Source: Propioniciclava sp. MC1595
GTDB lineage: Bacteria; Actinomycetota; Actinomycetes; Propionibacteriales; Propionibacteriaceae
Length of the DNA stretch: 64,000 bases
Reading direction: 5' to 3'
NCBI RefSeq assembly: GCF_017569205.1
Contig: NZ_CP071870.1
Coordinates: 1,302,001 to 1,366,000 of the forward strand
Below are positions 42,523 to 49,832 of this stretch, piece by piece. Positions within the stretch are counted from its first letter, which is position 1; each line of letters opens with the position of its first letter. The translations under genes and the position numbers were made by a program. The notes under the pieces are model-generated. The model made no database searches. It saw nothing but the letters and a program-made list of their open reading frames with translations, and was not told the DNA's origin.

Positions 42523-42981
42523 TCAGGCCTCGGTGGCCGCCCGCTGGACGGGCTCGTTCTCGGCCACGTCGCCACGGTCGCCGGTCAGGGCGGCGTAGGA
42601 GATGCCGGCGATCAGGGCGCCGACGATCGGGGCCACGATGAACGCCCAGACCTGCATGAGGGCGTCCGCACCCGCGAACCACGCCACGCCCAGCGAACGG
42701 GCCGGGTTGACCGAGGTGTTCGACACCGGGATGGAGATCAGGTGGATCAGGGTCAGCGCGAGGCCGATGGCCAGCGGGGCGAAGCCCTTGGGGGCCTTGT
42801 TGGAGGTGACGCCGAGGATGATCCAGATGAAGATCGCGGTCAACACGACCTCGGCGACGAGCACGGCGAGCAGGGAGTAGCCGCCGGGGGAGCGGTCGCC
42901 GTAGCCGTTGGTGGCGAGGCCTGACGCGACGGCGTCGAAGCCCGGCTGGCCGGAGGCGATGACGAACAGCACGAGGCCGGC
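42523..42981 (-). pseudogene. aqpZ: Aquaporin Z C-terminal half; N-terminal half deleted
   Basis: From 42981 the minus strand reads [17 protein letters not shown], then [40 protein letters not shown] and the second pore motif NTSVNPARS, all very close to bacterial AqpZ from about its residue 95 on. The first three helices and the first NPA motif are absent. Upstream of 42981 the frame runs without homology into the end of the neighbouring 183-aa protein gene (stop at 43010), so the join lies within 42981-43010. Three of six helices remain, so a working pore is unlikely. The frame is still open and its codons intact, so the loss looks recent. Confidence 0.75.
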
Positions 42982-43009
42982 GGGCGGCCTGTCACCCGCC
43001 CGGGCGACG

Positions 43010-43586: not shown

Positions 43587-43640
43587 TGTGGACAACGGGC
43601 GGGCCCGTGACGGGCCCTGTGGACGGTTGGAACCGGGTGC
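43587..43640 (+). promoter_or_regulatory. DnaA-box-like pair and GGAACCGGGTGC element before the DUF4192 gene
   Basis: TGTGGACAA (43587-43595) is the reverse complement of TTGTCCACA, the GC-rich DnaA box; TGTGGACGG (43618-43626) is a variant. GGAACCGGGTGC (43629-43640) follows, 33 nt before the ATG. The same order and the same 33-nt distance occur before comEA. Between the boxes a GGGCCCG/CGGGCCC hairpin is present. Confidence 0.6.
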
Positions 43641-43673
43641 ACGGGGCGCGGGCAGCCCGCCGACAACTAGGGC

Positions 43674-44600
43674 ATGACCGAAGCGCCCGAACGCACCACC
43701 GTGACCAGCCTGACCGACCTCGTCGAGGTCGTCCCGAGCCTGCTGGGCTTCCACCCCCACGATTCCCTCGTCCTGCTGGCGATCCGCGACGGGATGGTCC
43801 AGCTCACCGCCCGCACCGACCTGTTCGACGCCCCGCCGGCGCGGGCGCTTGCCCCCGCCTGGCACCGCCTGCCGGGGGCGCACTTCGTCGTGATCGCGTT
43901 CTCCGCCGACGCGGGGTGCGCCTGGTGGGGGCTCGACGACGTCGACCTTGCCCTCCCCGGGGACGCCGAGCGCATCCTCGTCCACGCCGACGGGGAGCGG
44001 TGGTACGAACACCCCGACGACGAAGGGACGCCCTACGACGCGCTGGGCGGCGTGCTGCTGGCCGAGGCGGCGTACGCCGGGCGGCCGATCCGGGGCTCGC
44101 GGGAGGAGCTGTACGCGCTCGTGGAACCCAACCGGACGCCGGCGGAGGTGACGGCGTCCCTCGACCGGGTCGCGGCGCGGGCGGAGGGCCTGTCGGACAT
44201 CCTCGGCGAGGCGCGCGCCCTGCTGGCCGCGCACGACGACGCCCCGGGCGACCTCGAGATCGACGACGCGACCGTGCTGTGCCTGGCCAGCCACGACCCG
44301 TGCTTCCTCGACGAGGCGCTGCTGTCGACCACGCGGGCCAACGCGGCCCCACGCGTGTCGCTGTGGCTGCAGGTCGTGGGCTGCGGGGTGCCGAACTGCG
44401 TCGGCGGGGCACTGGCCGCGGCGGCGCTCGCCGCGTGGCTCAACGGCGACGGCGCCCTGCAGTCGGTGTGCCTCGAGGCGATGGACGACCGGCCCGGTCC
44501 GGCCGAGTGGGCCCGCTTCCTGCAGGCCGTGAACCTGGGCGCGGTACCTCCCGCGGAGTGGGACTCGCTGGCGGCCGAGCTGCGGCGGGCCCGCGCCTGA
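43674..44600 (+). CDS. DUF4192 family protein
   Basis: 308 aa. The start SLTDLVEVVPSLLGFHPHDSLVLLAI is the signature of DUF4192, an actinobacterial family without known function. Two Cys clusters (VLCLASHDPCFLDE; VVGCGVPNC) and Trp-rich segments are present; no enzyme motif is evident. There is no Shine-Dalgarno before ATG 43674 and no clear TANNNT, but the upstream region matches that of comEA. A GC hairpin (44605-44622) follows the stop. Confidence 0.8.
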   Translation: MTEAPERTTVTSLTDLVEVVPSLLGFHPHDSLVLLAIRDGMVQLTARTDLFDAPPARALAPAWHRLPGAHFVVIAFSADAGCAWWGLDDVDLALPGDAERILVHADGERWYEHPDDEGTPYDALGGVLLAEAAYAGRPIRGSREELYALVEPNRTPAEVTASLDRVAARAEGLSDILGEARALLAAHDDAPGDLEIDDATVLCLASHDPCFLDEALLSTTRANAAPRVSLWLQVVGCGVPNCVGGALAAAALAAWLNGDGALQSVCLEAMDDRPGPAEWARFLQAVNLGAVPPAEWDSLAAELRRARA

Positions 44601-46562: not shown

Positions 46563-46620
46563 CTGTGGACAACCGAACCGCCCGCGGACACGGTTGTCCA
46601 CAGCGGTCGGAACCGGGTGC
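46563..46620 (+). promoter_or_regulatory. Inverted DnaA-box pair and GGAACCGGGTGC element before comEA
   Basis: CTGTGGACAACCG (46563-46575) and its exact reverse complement (46591-46603) are 15 nt apart. Each arm holds a perfect TTGTCCACA nonamer, in opposite orientations. GGAACCGGGTGC (46609-46620) follows, 33 nt before the comEA ATG. It lies between the divergent EEP gene and comEA. Confidence 0.7.
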
Positions 46621-46653
46621 TCGGATGGCCCCGGGATCGCCCAAGATCCGGGC

Positions 46654-47490
46654 ATGCGCCCGTCCCGAGCCCGTCCCGTCCAGGGCGACGTGGTGCGCGC
46701 CCGGCTGGACGCGCTGGTCGCCGAGCTCGGTGCGGCCCGCGAGGCGGTCCCCGGGGACGACGTGCTCGCGCCCGACCCGCCGCCGGTTGTTGACGTGGGG
46801 GCCGAGGAGGCGGGTGTCGACCCGGCGCCGCGCCGGGAACTCCCGCGGGCGGGGGTCGCCGCGGCCCTCCGTTCGGCCTGGGTCTTCGGCCGGGCCCACG
46901 CGGCCGTCATCGGCGTGATCGGGCTGGTCGCCCTCGTGGGCGCGGTCTGGGCGATCAGCCAGGCGCGCACGGTCCCGATCGCCGTGGCGGCCCCCACCCC
47001 TGTCGCGCCCGTCCTGGCGACCCCGTCGCCCACGCCGACCCCCGTGCCGCTGCGCGTGCACGTGCTGGGCGAGGTCGCCTCGCCGGGCGTGGTGCGCCTG
47101 CCTCAGGGTTCCCGGGTCGAGGACGCGATCGCGGCTGCGGGCGGCCTCACGCCCGAGGCGCGCCCCGGCGAGCTCAACCTCGCCGCACCAGTCGTCGACG
47201 GGGGCCAGGTGGTGATCGGTGACGGCCGCAACCCGGGCGGAGAGATGCGCGCGGGCGCGGCACCGGGAGCCGGGGGCGGCGCTGGTGGCGGTGGCTCGGG
47301 GAAGCTCGACCTCAACACGGCAACCGCCGACCAGCTCGACGGCCTGCCGGGCGTCGGGCCCGTGACGGCGTCGGCCATCCTGGCCTGGCGTGAGCAGCAC
47401 GAGCGGTTCTCCCGGGTGGAGGAGCTGCTCGAGATCGAGGGGATCGGGACGAAGACCTTCCAGCGGCTCGAGCCGCTGGTGACGGTGTGA
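46654..47490 (+). CDS. comEA: ComEA family competence DNA-binding protein
   Basis: 278 aa DNA receptor of natural transformation. One membrane helix (VIGVIGLVALVGAVWAIS, ~86-103) follows a cytoplasmic N-terminus; outside come a Pro/Thr linker, an SLBB domain (VHVLGEVASPGVVRLPQGSRVEDAI), a Gly-rich spacer and the helix-hairpin-helix DNA-binding end (LDLNTATADQLDGLPGVGPVTA ... FSRVEELLEIEGIG). The ATG at 46654 has no Shine-Dalgarno; CAAGAT lies 6 nt upstream as a possible weak -10. comEC overlaps the stop. Confidence 0.92.
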   Translation: MRPSRARPVQGDVVRARLDALVAELGAAREAVPGDDVLAPDPPPVVDVGAEEAGVDPAPRRELPRAGVAAALRSAWVFGRAHAAVIGVIGLVALVGAVWAISQARTVPIAVAAPTPVAPVLATPSPTPTPVPLRVHVLGEVASPGVVRLPQGSRVEDAIAAAGGLTPEARPGELNLAAPVVDGGQVVIGDGRNPGGEMRAGAAPGAGGGAGGGGSGKLDLNTATADQLDGLPGVGPVTASAILAWREQHERFSRVEELLEIEGIGTKTFQRLEPLVTV

Positions 47491-49832
47491 CCGTGGCGTC
47501 GCACGAAGAGGACCAGGGCGGGGCCGGTGGCGACCGGGGCGCCACGCAGGTGCTCGTCCTGGGGGTGGTGGCGTGGGCGGCCATGGGGTTGGCGACCTCG
47601 GGGGACCAGCGGGTGCTGGCCCTGACCGCCCTGCTCACCGCGGGGGTAGGACTGCTCGCGTGGCGGCGCTGCGACTGGTTCCTCGCCGCCGTCGTCGGTC
47701 TGGCTGCCGTGTGCGTGGTGACCGGGGGCGCCCGGGCCGCGGCGCAGGCGGCCGACCCGCTGACCGGCCTCGTGGCCGACGGGGCGAGCGCCGTGGTCGA
47801 CGTCCGGGTCTCGGGAAACGGGCGCCTGTGGGCGCCGTCCGGGACCCGGCCCGGCCTGTGGCGCGGCTCCGCCCAGCTGGTGCACGTCGAGGCCCGCGAC
47901 GGGGTGTGGCGCAGCGGCGCGTCCGTGCAGGTGCGGGCGACCGGCGACCTGGCCGCGGCGTGGGCGGGTGTCCCGATGGGGACCACCGTGCGGGCGGCGG
48001 TCCGGCTGGGTCCGGCGGAACCGGGCAGCGGGCTGGCCGCCGAACTGCGCGCCACCGACCGGCCGGAGGAGGTCGCCCCGCCCGACCCCGTCGCGGCCGC
48101 CGTCGGGGCGCTGCGGCGCGGCCTGGTGGTGGCGTGCGCGGGCCTGTGGCCGGAGCCGAGGGCGCTGGTCCCGGCCTTGGTCGTGGGTGACGTCACGGGC
48201 ATGACCACCGAGATGCGCGACCGGTTCGTCGTCACCGGCCTCACCCACCTGACCGCCGTCAGCGGGGCGAACCTGACGCTCCTGCTCGGGTTCCTGCGCG
48301 CGCTGGCGGTCGGCTGCGGCCTGCGCGGGCGGTGGCTGAACGGAGTGCTGGTCGCGGGCGTGGCCGGGTTCGTCGTTCTCTGCCTGGGTGAACCCAGCGT
48401 GCTGCGGGCCGCTGCGATGGGCCTGGTCGGGCTCGCGGCGCTGGGCCGGGCGGGCCGAGGGCGCCAGGGCCTGCGGTTCCTGGGCGTGGCCATGGTCGCC
48501 GTGGTGCTGGCCGAGCCCGCCATGGCGCGCTCGCTCGGGTTCGCCCTCTCCGTGCTGGCCACGTTCGGGCTGCTGCGCTGGGCCGGCGCGTGGACCGCCC
48601 TGCTGGCACGCTGGATGCCGCGCTGGTGCGCCGAGGCGCTCGCGGTGCCCCTGGCCGCGCAGGTGGCGACCGAACCGGTCGTGGTGTACCTCTCGGGGCA
48701 GGTCAGCGTGGTCTCGGTGCTCGCGAACCTGGTGGCCGGGCCGATGGTCGGGCCCGCGACCGTGCTCGGGTTGGCCGCCACGCTGCTCGGCCCCCTCCCG
48801 CTGCCGCTCGCCCTCGCACCCGCCTGGGGCGCCGGGTGGTTCGCCCAGGGCATCGCGTGGACCGCGCGCCTCGGCGAGGCACTCCCCGGCGCCGCAGTGC
48901 CGTGGCCGGTGACCCCGGCGTCGCTGGCCGTGGTGGTCCTCGGGTGCGTGGTGCTGGTGCTGCTCGCGCCCCGGGTCCTGGTGCGCCCCTGGCTGGCCCT
49001 CGGGATCGCCGCGGTGGTGGTCGTGGCCCTGGCCCGGACGCCCACCCCACCGGGATGGCCGCCCCGCGCCTGGGCGGTGGCCTCCTGCGACGTGGGGCAG
49101 GGCGACGCGACCCTCGTCGCGGTCGCGCCCGGGCAGGCGGTCCTCGTCGACACCGGGCCCGACCCGGGCCTCCTGCGGCGCTGCCTCGACCAGCTGGGCG
49201 TCACCCACGTCCCGCTCCTGCTGCTCACGCACCTGCACGCCGACCACGTGGGGGGCATCCCCGCCCTGGCCGACCGGGGTGTGGCGGTCGTCGCGACGTC
49301 CCCCGGCGCAGCGCCGGCTGCGCAGGCGGGGTTGGCCGTCGCCCTGCCGGAGGCCCGGCTGGGACCGGCCGCCGCGGGCTCGGCCTGGGCGATCGGCGCC
49401 GCCCGCGTCGAGGTGCTCGCGGCACCGGGCCTGGCCCGGGACCTGGTCGCCGGCGAGGGCGAGTCGTCGGCCGAGAACGACGCGTCGTTGCTGCTGCGCG
49501 CCGACGTTGGGGGAGTCAGCATCCTGCTGGCCGGGGACGCGGAGGAGGGGGCCCAGGGGCGTCACGTCGCGCTGGGGGATGTGCTGGACGTGGACGTCCT
49601 GCTCGTCCCGCACCACGGGAGCGGCCGGCATGCGCCGGGGTTCATCGCCGCGGCGCGTCCGGAGGTGGCGCTGGTGAGCGTGGGGGAGGGCAACGACTAC
49701 GGCCACCCGGCGGCCCGGACGCTCCGCTCGGTGGAGGTCACCGGTGCGGCCGTGTTCCGGACAGACCAGCGGGGCGCGGTGGCGGTGGCGCGGTCCCCGG
49801 ACGGAGGCCTGGTGGTGACGACCCAGCGGTAG
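47487..49832 (+). CDS. comEC: ComEC/Rec2 family DNA uptake channel
   Basis: 781 aa. N-terminal helices and DUF4131-like region, the competence domain (LVVGDVTGMTTEMRDRF, LTHLTAVSGANLTLLLG) with many helices, and a C-terminal metallo-beta-lactamase-like domain with SCDVGQGDATLV, LLTHLHADHVGG (near 580), LLAGDAEEGAQ and LLVPHHGS. It passes single-stranded DNA across the membrane; the lactamase-like domain may degrade the other strand. GTG 47487 overlaps comEA by 4 bp. holA, often next to comEC in actinomycetes, is 5.6 kb away here, with the sugar locus between. Confidence 0.93.
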   Translation: MTVASHEEDQGGAGGDRGATQVLVLGVVAWAAMGLATSGDQRVLALTALLTAGVGLLAWRRCDWFLAAVVGLAAVCVVTGGARAAAQAADPLTGLVADGASAVVDVRVSGNGRLWAPSGTRPGLWRGSAQLVHVEARDGVWRSGASVQVRATGDLAAAWAGVPMGTTVRAAVRLGPAEPGSGLAAELRATDRPEEVAPPDPVAAAVGALRRGLVVACAGLWPEPRALVPALVVGDVTGMTTEMRDRFVVTGLTHLTAVSGANLTLLLGFLRALAVGCGLRGRWLNGVLVAGVAGFVVLCLGEPSVLRAAAMGLVGLAALGRAGRGRQGLRFLGVAMVAVVLAEPAMARSLGFALSVLATFGLLRWAGAWTALLARWMPRWCAEALAVPLAAQVATEPVVVYLSGQVSVVSVLANLVAGPMVGPATVLGLAATLLGPLPLPLALAPAWGAGWFAQGIAWTARLGEALPGAAVPWPVTPASLAVVVLGCVVLVLLAPRVLVRPWLALGIAAVVVVALARTPTPPGWPPRAWAVASCDVGQGDATLVAVAPGQAVLVDTGPDPGLLRRCLDQLGVTHVPLLLLTHLHADHVGGIPALADRGVAVVATSPGAAPAAQAGLAVALPEARLGPAAAGSAWAIGAARVEVLAAPGLARDLVAGEGESSAENDASLLLRADVGGVSILLAGDAEEGAQGRHVALGDVLDVDVLLVPHHGSGRHAPGFIAAARPEVALVSVGEGNDYGHPAARTLRSVEVTGAAVFRTDQRGAVAVARSPDGGLVVTTQR

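Follow-up and report, generated by a model that had tools for sequence, protein, structure and literature searches.

The stretch of DNA analysed here (the window) comprises 64,000 nt of the genome of Propioniciclava sp. MC1595, which is a single contig of 3.43 Mb. It carries a gene of the DUF4192 family and, about 3 kb away, the core uptake gene comEA, with comEC next after comEA. The DUF4192 protein scores 98.2 bits against the Pfam profile PF13830 (cut-off 27.8), which meets the requirement for family membership. The genes and the elements that we assign to their promoters lie as follows.

43587..43595, minus strand: distal DnaA-box-like nonamer of the DUF4192 promoter, TTGTCCACA on the minus strand, an exact match to TTRTCCACA (genome coordinates G000:C1:1345587-1345595)
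43618..43626, minus strand: proximal box-like nonamer of the DUF4192 promoter, reversed, reading TGTGGACGG on the plus strand, with two mismatches
43629..43640, plus strand: presumed -35 region of DUF4192, GGAACCGGGTGC, inferred from its place, where relatives have [GT]TGAC-like words
43662..43667, plus strand: candidate -10 hexamer GACAAC of DUF4192, 6 nt from the ATG, at a position matching that in relatives; the leaderless start is inferred
43674..44600, plus strand: DUF4192 gene, 308 aa, ATG at 43674 (PF13830, E 1.1e-27; structural model with pLDDT 95.1)
46564..46572, minus strand: distal DnaA-box-like nonamer of the comEA promoter, read from the sequence and in the genome scan with TTRTCCACA
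46594..46602, plus strand: proximal box of the comEA promoter, TTGTCCACA(G), its end 51 nt from the ATG, within a match to the promoter model R1 (see below)
46609..46620, plus strand: presumed -35 region of comEA, GGAACCGGGTGC
46642..46647, plus strand: candidate -10 hexamer CAAGAT of comEA, its xAnnnT position matching that in relatives
46654..47490, plus strand: comEA (SLBB and helix-hairpin-helix domains), ATG at 46654 (PF12836, PF10531; TIGR00426 over its cut-off)
47487..49832, plus strand: comEC (PF03772, E 3.5e-42)

The AlphaFold2 model of the DUF4192 protein (pLDDT 95.1, pTM 0.92) is alpha/beta in its N-terminal part and helical in its C-terminal part. No relative was found in the PDB by sequence (best E 0.026) or by fold (none at E ≤0.001, with query-normalised TM no higher than 0.23 among the 50 rows listed), and a protein search of named genomes confirmed none. 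The family is present in 78 of the 98 class genomes searched and, among 14 control genomes, in C. glutamicum only. Any role for the protein is inferred from the company its gene keeps alone. On the minus strand at 42523-43000 of the window lies an aquaporin-like frame, judged by eye, whose N-terminal half is apparently missing.

The 12-mer and the adjoining promoter parts

The first-pass annotation had described one promoter layout for the two genes, built around the 12-mer GGAACCGGGTGC and exactly 33 nt between it and the ATG. Both promoters do contain this arrangement (43629-43640 to the ATG at 43674; 46609-46620 to that at 46654), as well as the flanks described, CGGT(T/C) before the 12-mer and GGGC-ATG at the end. 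The layouts are alike but not identical, as the second nonamer is forward at comEA (46594, plus strand) and reversed with two mismatches at DUF4192 (43618-43626), where its TGTGGA core ends 50 nt upstream of the ATG. The 12-mer was also said to occur, as far as could be seen, at these two places only, which is true within the window, where there is no other exact copy, but not of the genome, which has seven. A third copy (L006) lies 0.75 Mb from the window in the promoter of yraN, 35 nt before the ATG and 6 nt after TTGTCCACA, a spacing equal to that at comEA. No box was found within 90 nt on either side of the other four copies.

With one mismatch allowed, the 12-mer has 62 matches in the MC1595 genome and the same pattern read backwards has 79, so that the 12-mer alone is not enriched. 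Unrelated matches at other distances had been named in advance as an outcome that would refute the idea, and for the 12-mer this outcome occurred. Given the four of seven exact copies without a box in their 90-nt flanks and the lack of enrichment at one mismatch, we ruled out the 12-mer as a regulatory signal. As a shared signal, the 12-mer with its exact 33 nt is true of both window promoters, but the part conserved in relatives is the DnaA-box-like site described below; judged from such comparisons, the 12-mer is merely the local spelling of the -35 region.

That region reads GGAACCGGGTGC before comEA, DUF4192 and yraN in the MC1595 genome, GGATCGGGTGC before Ssd and GGAATCCGGTGC before the pilin gene. 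In relatives, [GT]TGAC-like words stand 3' of the box at some 35-45 nt from the start, and roughly six bases, in many cases GAGGGC, separate an xAnnnT from the start codon. Together these words look like the -35/-10 pair of a leaderless transcript, although this is an inference made without start mapping. A reading of GGAAC as the -35 element of an ECF sigma factor, which rested on recall only, was dropped because relatives have [GT]TGAC-like words there.

The DnaA-box-like site in the family

Exact matches to TTRTCCACA number 27 in the 3.43 Mb of the MC1595 genome, compared with 8 for the reversed control. Among 117 genomes of the family, 108 have a match to DUF4192 (112 in the tally from which upstream regions were drawn) and 113 have one to comEA. 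Upstream regions were sampled wherever enough upstream DNA had been fetched, which gave 119 regions: 81 of DUF4192 (79 orthologues and two paralogues, from 79 of the 112 genomes with a match) and 38 of comEA (from 38 of 113). Start codons were picked from the reading frame and the bases just ahead of the start, without use of the box.

Allowing one mismatch, 62 of the 119 upstream regions, from 19 genera, have a forward TTRTCCACA whose end is 49-52 nt from the start, and 44 of these sites are exact. At the same distance we found no reversed boxes and none in the coding stretch checked, and up to 300 permuted words put through the same test gave a mean of 0.05 and a maximum of 3. Directly 3' of the box, 58 of the 62 sites have a G. 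A second box, 76-116 nt before the start, is forward in 33 cases and reversed in 11. For comEA alone, the forward box is in place in 25 of 38 regions; the DUF4192 promoters share a cis-element with a core uptake gene.

Among the 117 orthologous upstream regions, 62 have the forward box in place, five have a reversed box at 42-52 nt, 36 have a box at another place within 200 nt, and 14 (eight DUF4192, six comEA) have none within 200 nt, although some of these starts may be wrong. The TGTGGA/TCCACA core occurs near the start of 65 of the 79 DUF4192 orthologues; read backwards, the core is near five of the 79 starts. Within the genus of MC1595, all 12 DUF4192 upstream regions contain the reversed TGTGGA core, and in 11 of them it ends at one of two places separated by one helical turn, 38-40 or 48-51 nt ahead of the start codon. 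For the twelfth (G052) the assigned start is uncertain. Neither of the two DUF4192 paralogues (L155 in G052, L144 in G058) has the box in place. Seen by eye, both have a ribosome-binding-site-like leader. By this comparison, the conserved signal is the DnaA-box-like TTRTCCACA(G), ending 49-52 nt before what looks like a leaderless start.

The two window promoters might also resemble each other through recent duplication or conversion between neighbours only 3 kb apart, and DUF4192 and comEA do lie within 10 kb of each other in at least 59 genomes of the family (by match coordinates, and fetched as single stretches). The copies before yraN and Ssd, far from the window, already speak against such a local accident; in the yraN promoter, 0.75 Mb away, the 12-mer lies as far from the box as at comEA. 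It is also at odds with the retention of box and distance over 19 genera and in genomes with the two genes on different contigs (see below), and we regard it as very improbable.

Genes behind the promoter in the family and in the class

We built a sequence-only promoter model, R1, from 62 (of 63 listed) comEA and DUF4192 promoters of relatives, none of them from MC1595; its E-values are rough. Its six best matches in the MC1595 genome (E 3.1e-6 to 3.0e-5) stand before a gene for a 315-aa protein (L189), the Ssd gene at the head of the tad operon, the yraN-comM-dprA genes, a DUF4244 Flp pilin gene, recA, and comEA, where the match (G000:C1:1348589-1348656, window 46589-46656) covers the proximal box. 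Assignments rest on Pfam or NCBIfam profiles for YraN (UPF0102), the pilin (DUF4244), Ssd (TIGR03815), ComM (TIGR00368), DprA (PF02481) and T2SSE and T2SSF in the tad operon; RecA was assigned by eye. The L189 protein has no Pfam match and was placed in a nuclease-like family by its BLAST cluster. Between the box and the likely start there are 90 nt at the pilin gene and 121 nt at recA, more than the 50 or so elsewhere.

Weaker R1 matches in the same genome include those before genes for a DUF2695 protein (2.4e-4), a DUF222-HNH protein (1.5e-3) and SSB (0.017), and the DUF4192 promoter of the window, in which the proximal box is reversed and degenerate, is matched only weakly (E 0.08). Other boxes and weaker R1 matches lead to unrelated genes. 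Two DUF222-HNH genes carry a box, one forward and 50 nt before the likely start (L160, G000:C1:552999), the other reversed and 68 nt before it (L159, G000:C1:396461, assigned by its likeness to L160).

All 57 family genomes searched have R1 matches at E ≤0.1, four of them one or two only; this figure is not independent, since the comEA and DUF4192 matches are partly the training set. We excluded comEA and DUF4192 rows from a sample of 60 fetched matches, which was drawn from the matches listed, with only some of the rows from G030, G006, G052, G009 and G014 and none from the remaining genomes. Genes were assigned by BLAST clusters, ten rows by eye after other frames had been viewed, and representatives by Pfam or NCBIfam. 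The matches precede 19 nuclease/AbiEi-like, 12 Ssd, seven M23 peptidase, six pilin, five SSB, four YraN, two ComF-like and two RecA genes, one CpaB/SAF gene and two others (an IS256-like transposase frame and an unclear frame). Among the matches listed, 58 of the 60 fetched are thus upstream of uptake, pilus, recombination, peptidase or nuclease-like genes, and a single element stands before both pilus genes and genes for handling single-stranded DNA (tad, the dprA operon, ssb, recA, comF).

The nuclease-like family (A2), a multigene family that possibly acts on imported DNA, matches MTES_1575 in 15 of 20 members, DUF559 in 14 and AbiEi_4 in three, with invariant E and D residues. Its proteins, of about 300 aa, have an AbiEi-like head and a PD-(D/E)XK-like (MTES_1575/DUF559) tail; examples are L255, L268 and L189, the last in the MC1595 genome at G000:C1:1019312.

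Beyond the family, R1 has matches at E ≤0.01 in 77 of 148 class genomes, that of MC1595 included. We opened 29 loci from other genomes, naming the genes mostly by eye and confirming the DUF4192 and comEA cases by separate searches. They comprise two DUF4192, two comEA, two ComF-like, one M23, one Ssd-like, one SSB, five nuclease/AbiEi-like, five S9-peptidase-like, one RecQ-like and one glpD-like gene and eight others or unassigned. A further candidate for comEA (L350) was not borne out, the comEA of that genome (G157) lying elsewhere, and was excluded from the counts. R1 matches precede DUF4192 in G180, G196, G134 and G183, and comEA in G132, G190 and G210.

We also took the best 30 PF13830 matches and 29 comEA matches of the class, two of the latter being dropped for short upstream DNA. 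A box lies 47-53 nt before a possible start in 12 of 27 comEA regions (seven of 15 families) and in eight of 30 DUF4192 regions (three of 12 families), and permuted words gave means of 0.04 and 0.09 and maxima of 2 and 3, respectively. The box is absent at that distance from 22 of the 30 DUF4192 and 15 of the 27 comEA regions. In G161, G195 and G210 the two genes lie on different contigs with the box at both, and in G179, which belongs to the same genus as G161 and G195 and has its genome on one contig, 0.5 Mb separates them.

Named genomes were scanned with the composite pattern GTTGTCCACAG-N44-47-GGGCATGA, and 80 of 116 stretches were listed, 78 of them Actinomycetota by title. These 80 include at least seven DUF4192, at least five nuclease-like and at least two comEA genes and at least one each for CpaB, YraN, M23, Ssd and, judged by eye, comEC. 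Among the matches listed, the DUF4192 cases are from Amycolatopsis (two), Actinoallomurus, Actinoplanes, Paractinoplanes, Propionibacterium acidifaciens and Ornithinimicrobium. Of the rest, 12 rows have a RecQ-like helicase behind the pattern (the eight shown are Streptomyces), 26 have short first ORFs (all six opened lead into a glpD-like gene), three have S9-peptidase-like genes and 20 are other or unassigned. Streptomyces makes up a large part of the listing; in rows such as L389, L395, L398, L400, L406 and L463 the pattern precedes a glpD-like gene, and in others a RecQ-like helicase. The RecQ-, glpD-, S9- and RecA-like names, like the class-wide ones, were given largely by eye from sequence.

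Since the pattern stands before unrelated Streptomyces genes, the site serves other genes too, at least there. For the box, the refuting outcome named above applies in Streptomyces. It could even be that the box is a general high-GC promoter motif or a motif for DnaA titration, in which case its presence before DUF4192 would be uninformative about competence. The glpD-like, RecQ-like and S9-like genes of Streptomyces and the unrelated genes behind other boxes and weaker R1 matches in MC1595 are in keeping with this reading. Against it stand the mere 27 exact copies in 3.43 Mb and the genes of the kinds named above behind 58 of 60 fetched family matches (among those listed), and we consider it unlikely.

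The proposed competence regulon and its reader

The first-pass annotation had suggested that DUF4192 is regulated together with the DNA-uptake genes. Comparison supports this in the absence of any experiment: box and distance recur before both genes in the family, the model built from the comEA and DUF4192 promoters of relatives finds the promoters of dprA, tad, pilin and recA genes, and the box stands before DUF4192 in other families, including where comEA is on another contig. We consider it probable that the DUF4192 and comEA promoters are members of an actinomycete competence regulon with the scheme and gene set proposed here. Site, position and gene set are established by comparing sequences alone, whereas activation, leaderless start and the role of DUF4192 are inferred, without expression data. 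As a member of the regulon, DUF4192 most likely acts in DNA uptake or in processing imported DNA, its need for transformation and its co-induction being predictions only.

As we picture it, an activator would bind the directional DnaA-box-like site (G)TTRTCCACA(G), often paired with another site some 30 bp further up. The forward site would end 49-52 bp before the start codon, and reversed copies mostly 38-42 or 48-51 bp before it, one helical turn apart. The bound activator may contact RNA polymerase at the adjoining -35 region (roughly GGAAnCGGGTGC in MC1595) and the -10 element xAnnnT, and the mRNA would begin at or adjoining the start codon. One switch might in this way govern comEA/comEC, yraN-comM-dprA, the Ssd-led tad (Flp pilus) operon, the Flp pilin gene, an SSB paralogue and recA, as well as ComF-like genes, the CpaB/SAF gene, the M23 peptidase, the PD-(D/E)XK-like proteins with AbiEi-like heads, and DUF4192.

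In other phyla, competence regulons use ComK boxes, CIN boxes for ComX and CRP-S sites for Sxy/CRP. There, one class of site likewise precedes uptake, pilus, ssb, dprA, recA and comF genes; the actinomycete case differs in its DnaA-box-like site, in the fixed distance to leaderless-looking starts and in the tad-type pilus. No activator like ComK, ComX or Sxy was identified in this analysis.

Natural transformation has been known in Actinobacteria for more than four decades (PMC4322843), but its regulatory cascade was still described as unidentified in 2026 (PMC12849477). Micrococcus luteus has the same kind of gene set, with comEA/EC and tad needed for transformation and a CpaB/SAF protein involved (PMC4322843, PMC8467076, PMC12849477). 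DnaA is absent from the main texts of these papers and of PMC6667448, and the passages found in them contain no com promoter motif. The lone Micrococcus match to the composite pattern among those listed (M. lylae) is not before a com gene. In the dark, expression of comEC, dprA and tad genes increases jointly in the actinobacterium Rhodoluna lacicola, comEA being excepted in the Results; the words motif, promoter and DUF are absent from that text (PMC8591293). In the literature searched, we found no report of a DnaA-box-like site before competence genes. The conserved element at com, tad, dprA, ssb and recA genes could serve as bait for the unidentified regulator and would predict which species keep the competence programme, and it places two uncharacterised families, DUF4192 and the MTES_1575/DUF559-like proteins, into DNA uptake.

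DnaA is the leading single candidate for the protein that reads the site, with a dedicated regulator of similar specificity next. That DnaA is the activator, the com boxes being DnaA boxes and competence being tied to the state of replication initiation, is a serious possibility that we would stop short of calling probable, there being no binding data. The com box equals the actinobacterial DnaA box and is identical to a box just before the dnaA gene of MC1595 (TTGTCCACA at G000:C1:105-113), which presumably works as a DnaA box, and the paired sites, their two orientations and their helical phasing also suit DnaA. DnaA of B. subtilis likewise binds boxes near the genes it regulates, although the passages found describe no uptake-gene regulon under DnaA boxes (PMC11841835), and DnaA binding at com boxes is without data here.

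Less easily explained by DnaA is the lack of an exact TTRTCCACA in the dnaA-dnaN gap of MC1595. Genus g21 points neither way: its comEA boxes read TTRTCCCCA (G099, G108) while none of seven boxes in the dnaA stretch of G099 and one of five in that of G108 are so spelled, but the Ssd boxes there keep TTATCCACA; the dnaA-stretch boxes were counted at one mismatch or fewer and in the fetched stretch only.

Elsewhere, competence regulons have dedicated activators, namely ComK, ComX and Sxy. On this precedent, the reader might be a dedicated competence activator with DnaA-box-like specificity, a tenable second choice to which we give somewhat less credence. The conserved word exceeds the nonamer, with G as the next base in 58 of 62 sites, and an HTH_17 protein of M. 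luteus influences com expression (PMC8467076). No clear candidate was found, however. AbiEi_4, which Pfam labels a transcriptional regulator, is matched by three of 20 nuclease-like members, and it cannot be excluded that the AbiEi-like heads of this family are DNA binders.

Returning to DnaA, the most inclusive version is one we offer only tentatively and with some doubt: that across many families of Actinomycetes DnaA, acting as an activator from pairs of boxes some 55 bp ahead of leaderless starts, would switch on a transformation programme (com, the tad pilus, dprA, ssb and recA), with DUF4192 and a multigene PD-(D/E)XK-like family acting on imported DNA also under its control. If DnaA is indeed the activator, DNA uptake would be tied to the state of replication initiation.

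As to spelling within g21, TTRTCCCCA takes the place of TTRTCCACA in several com boxes (L081 in G099, L076 in G108 and L384 in G115).
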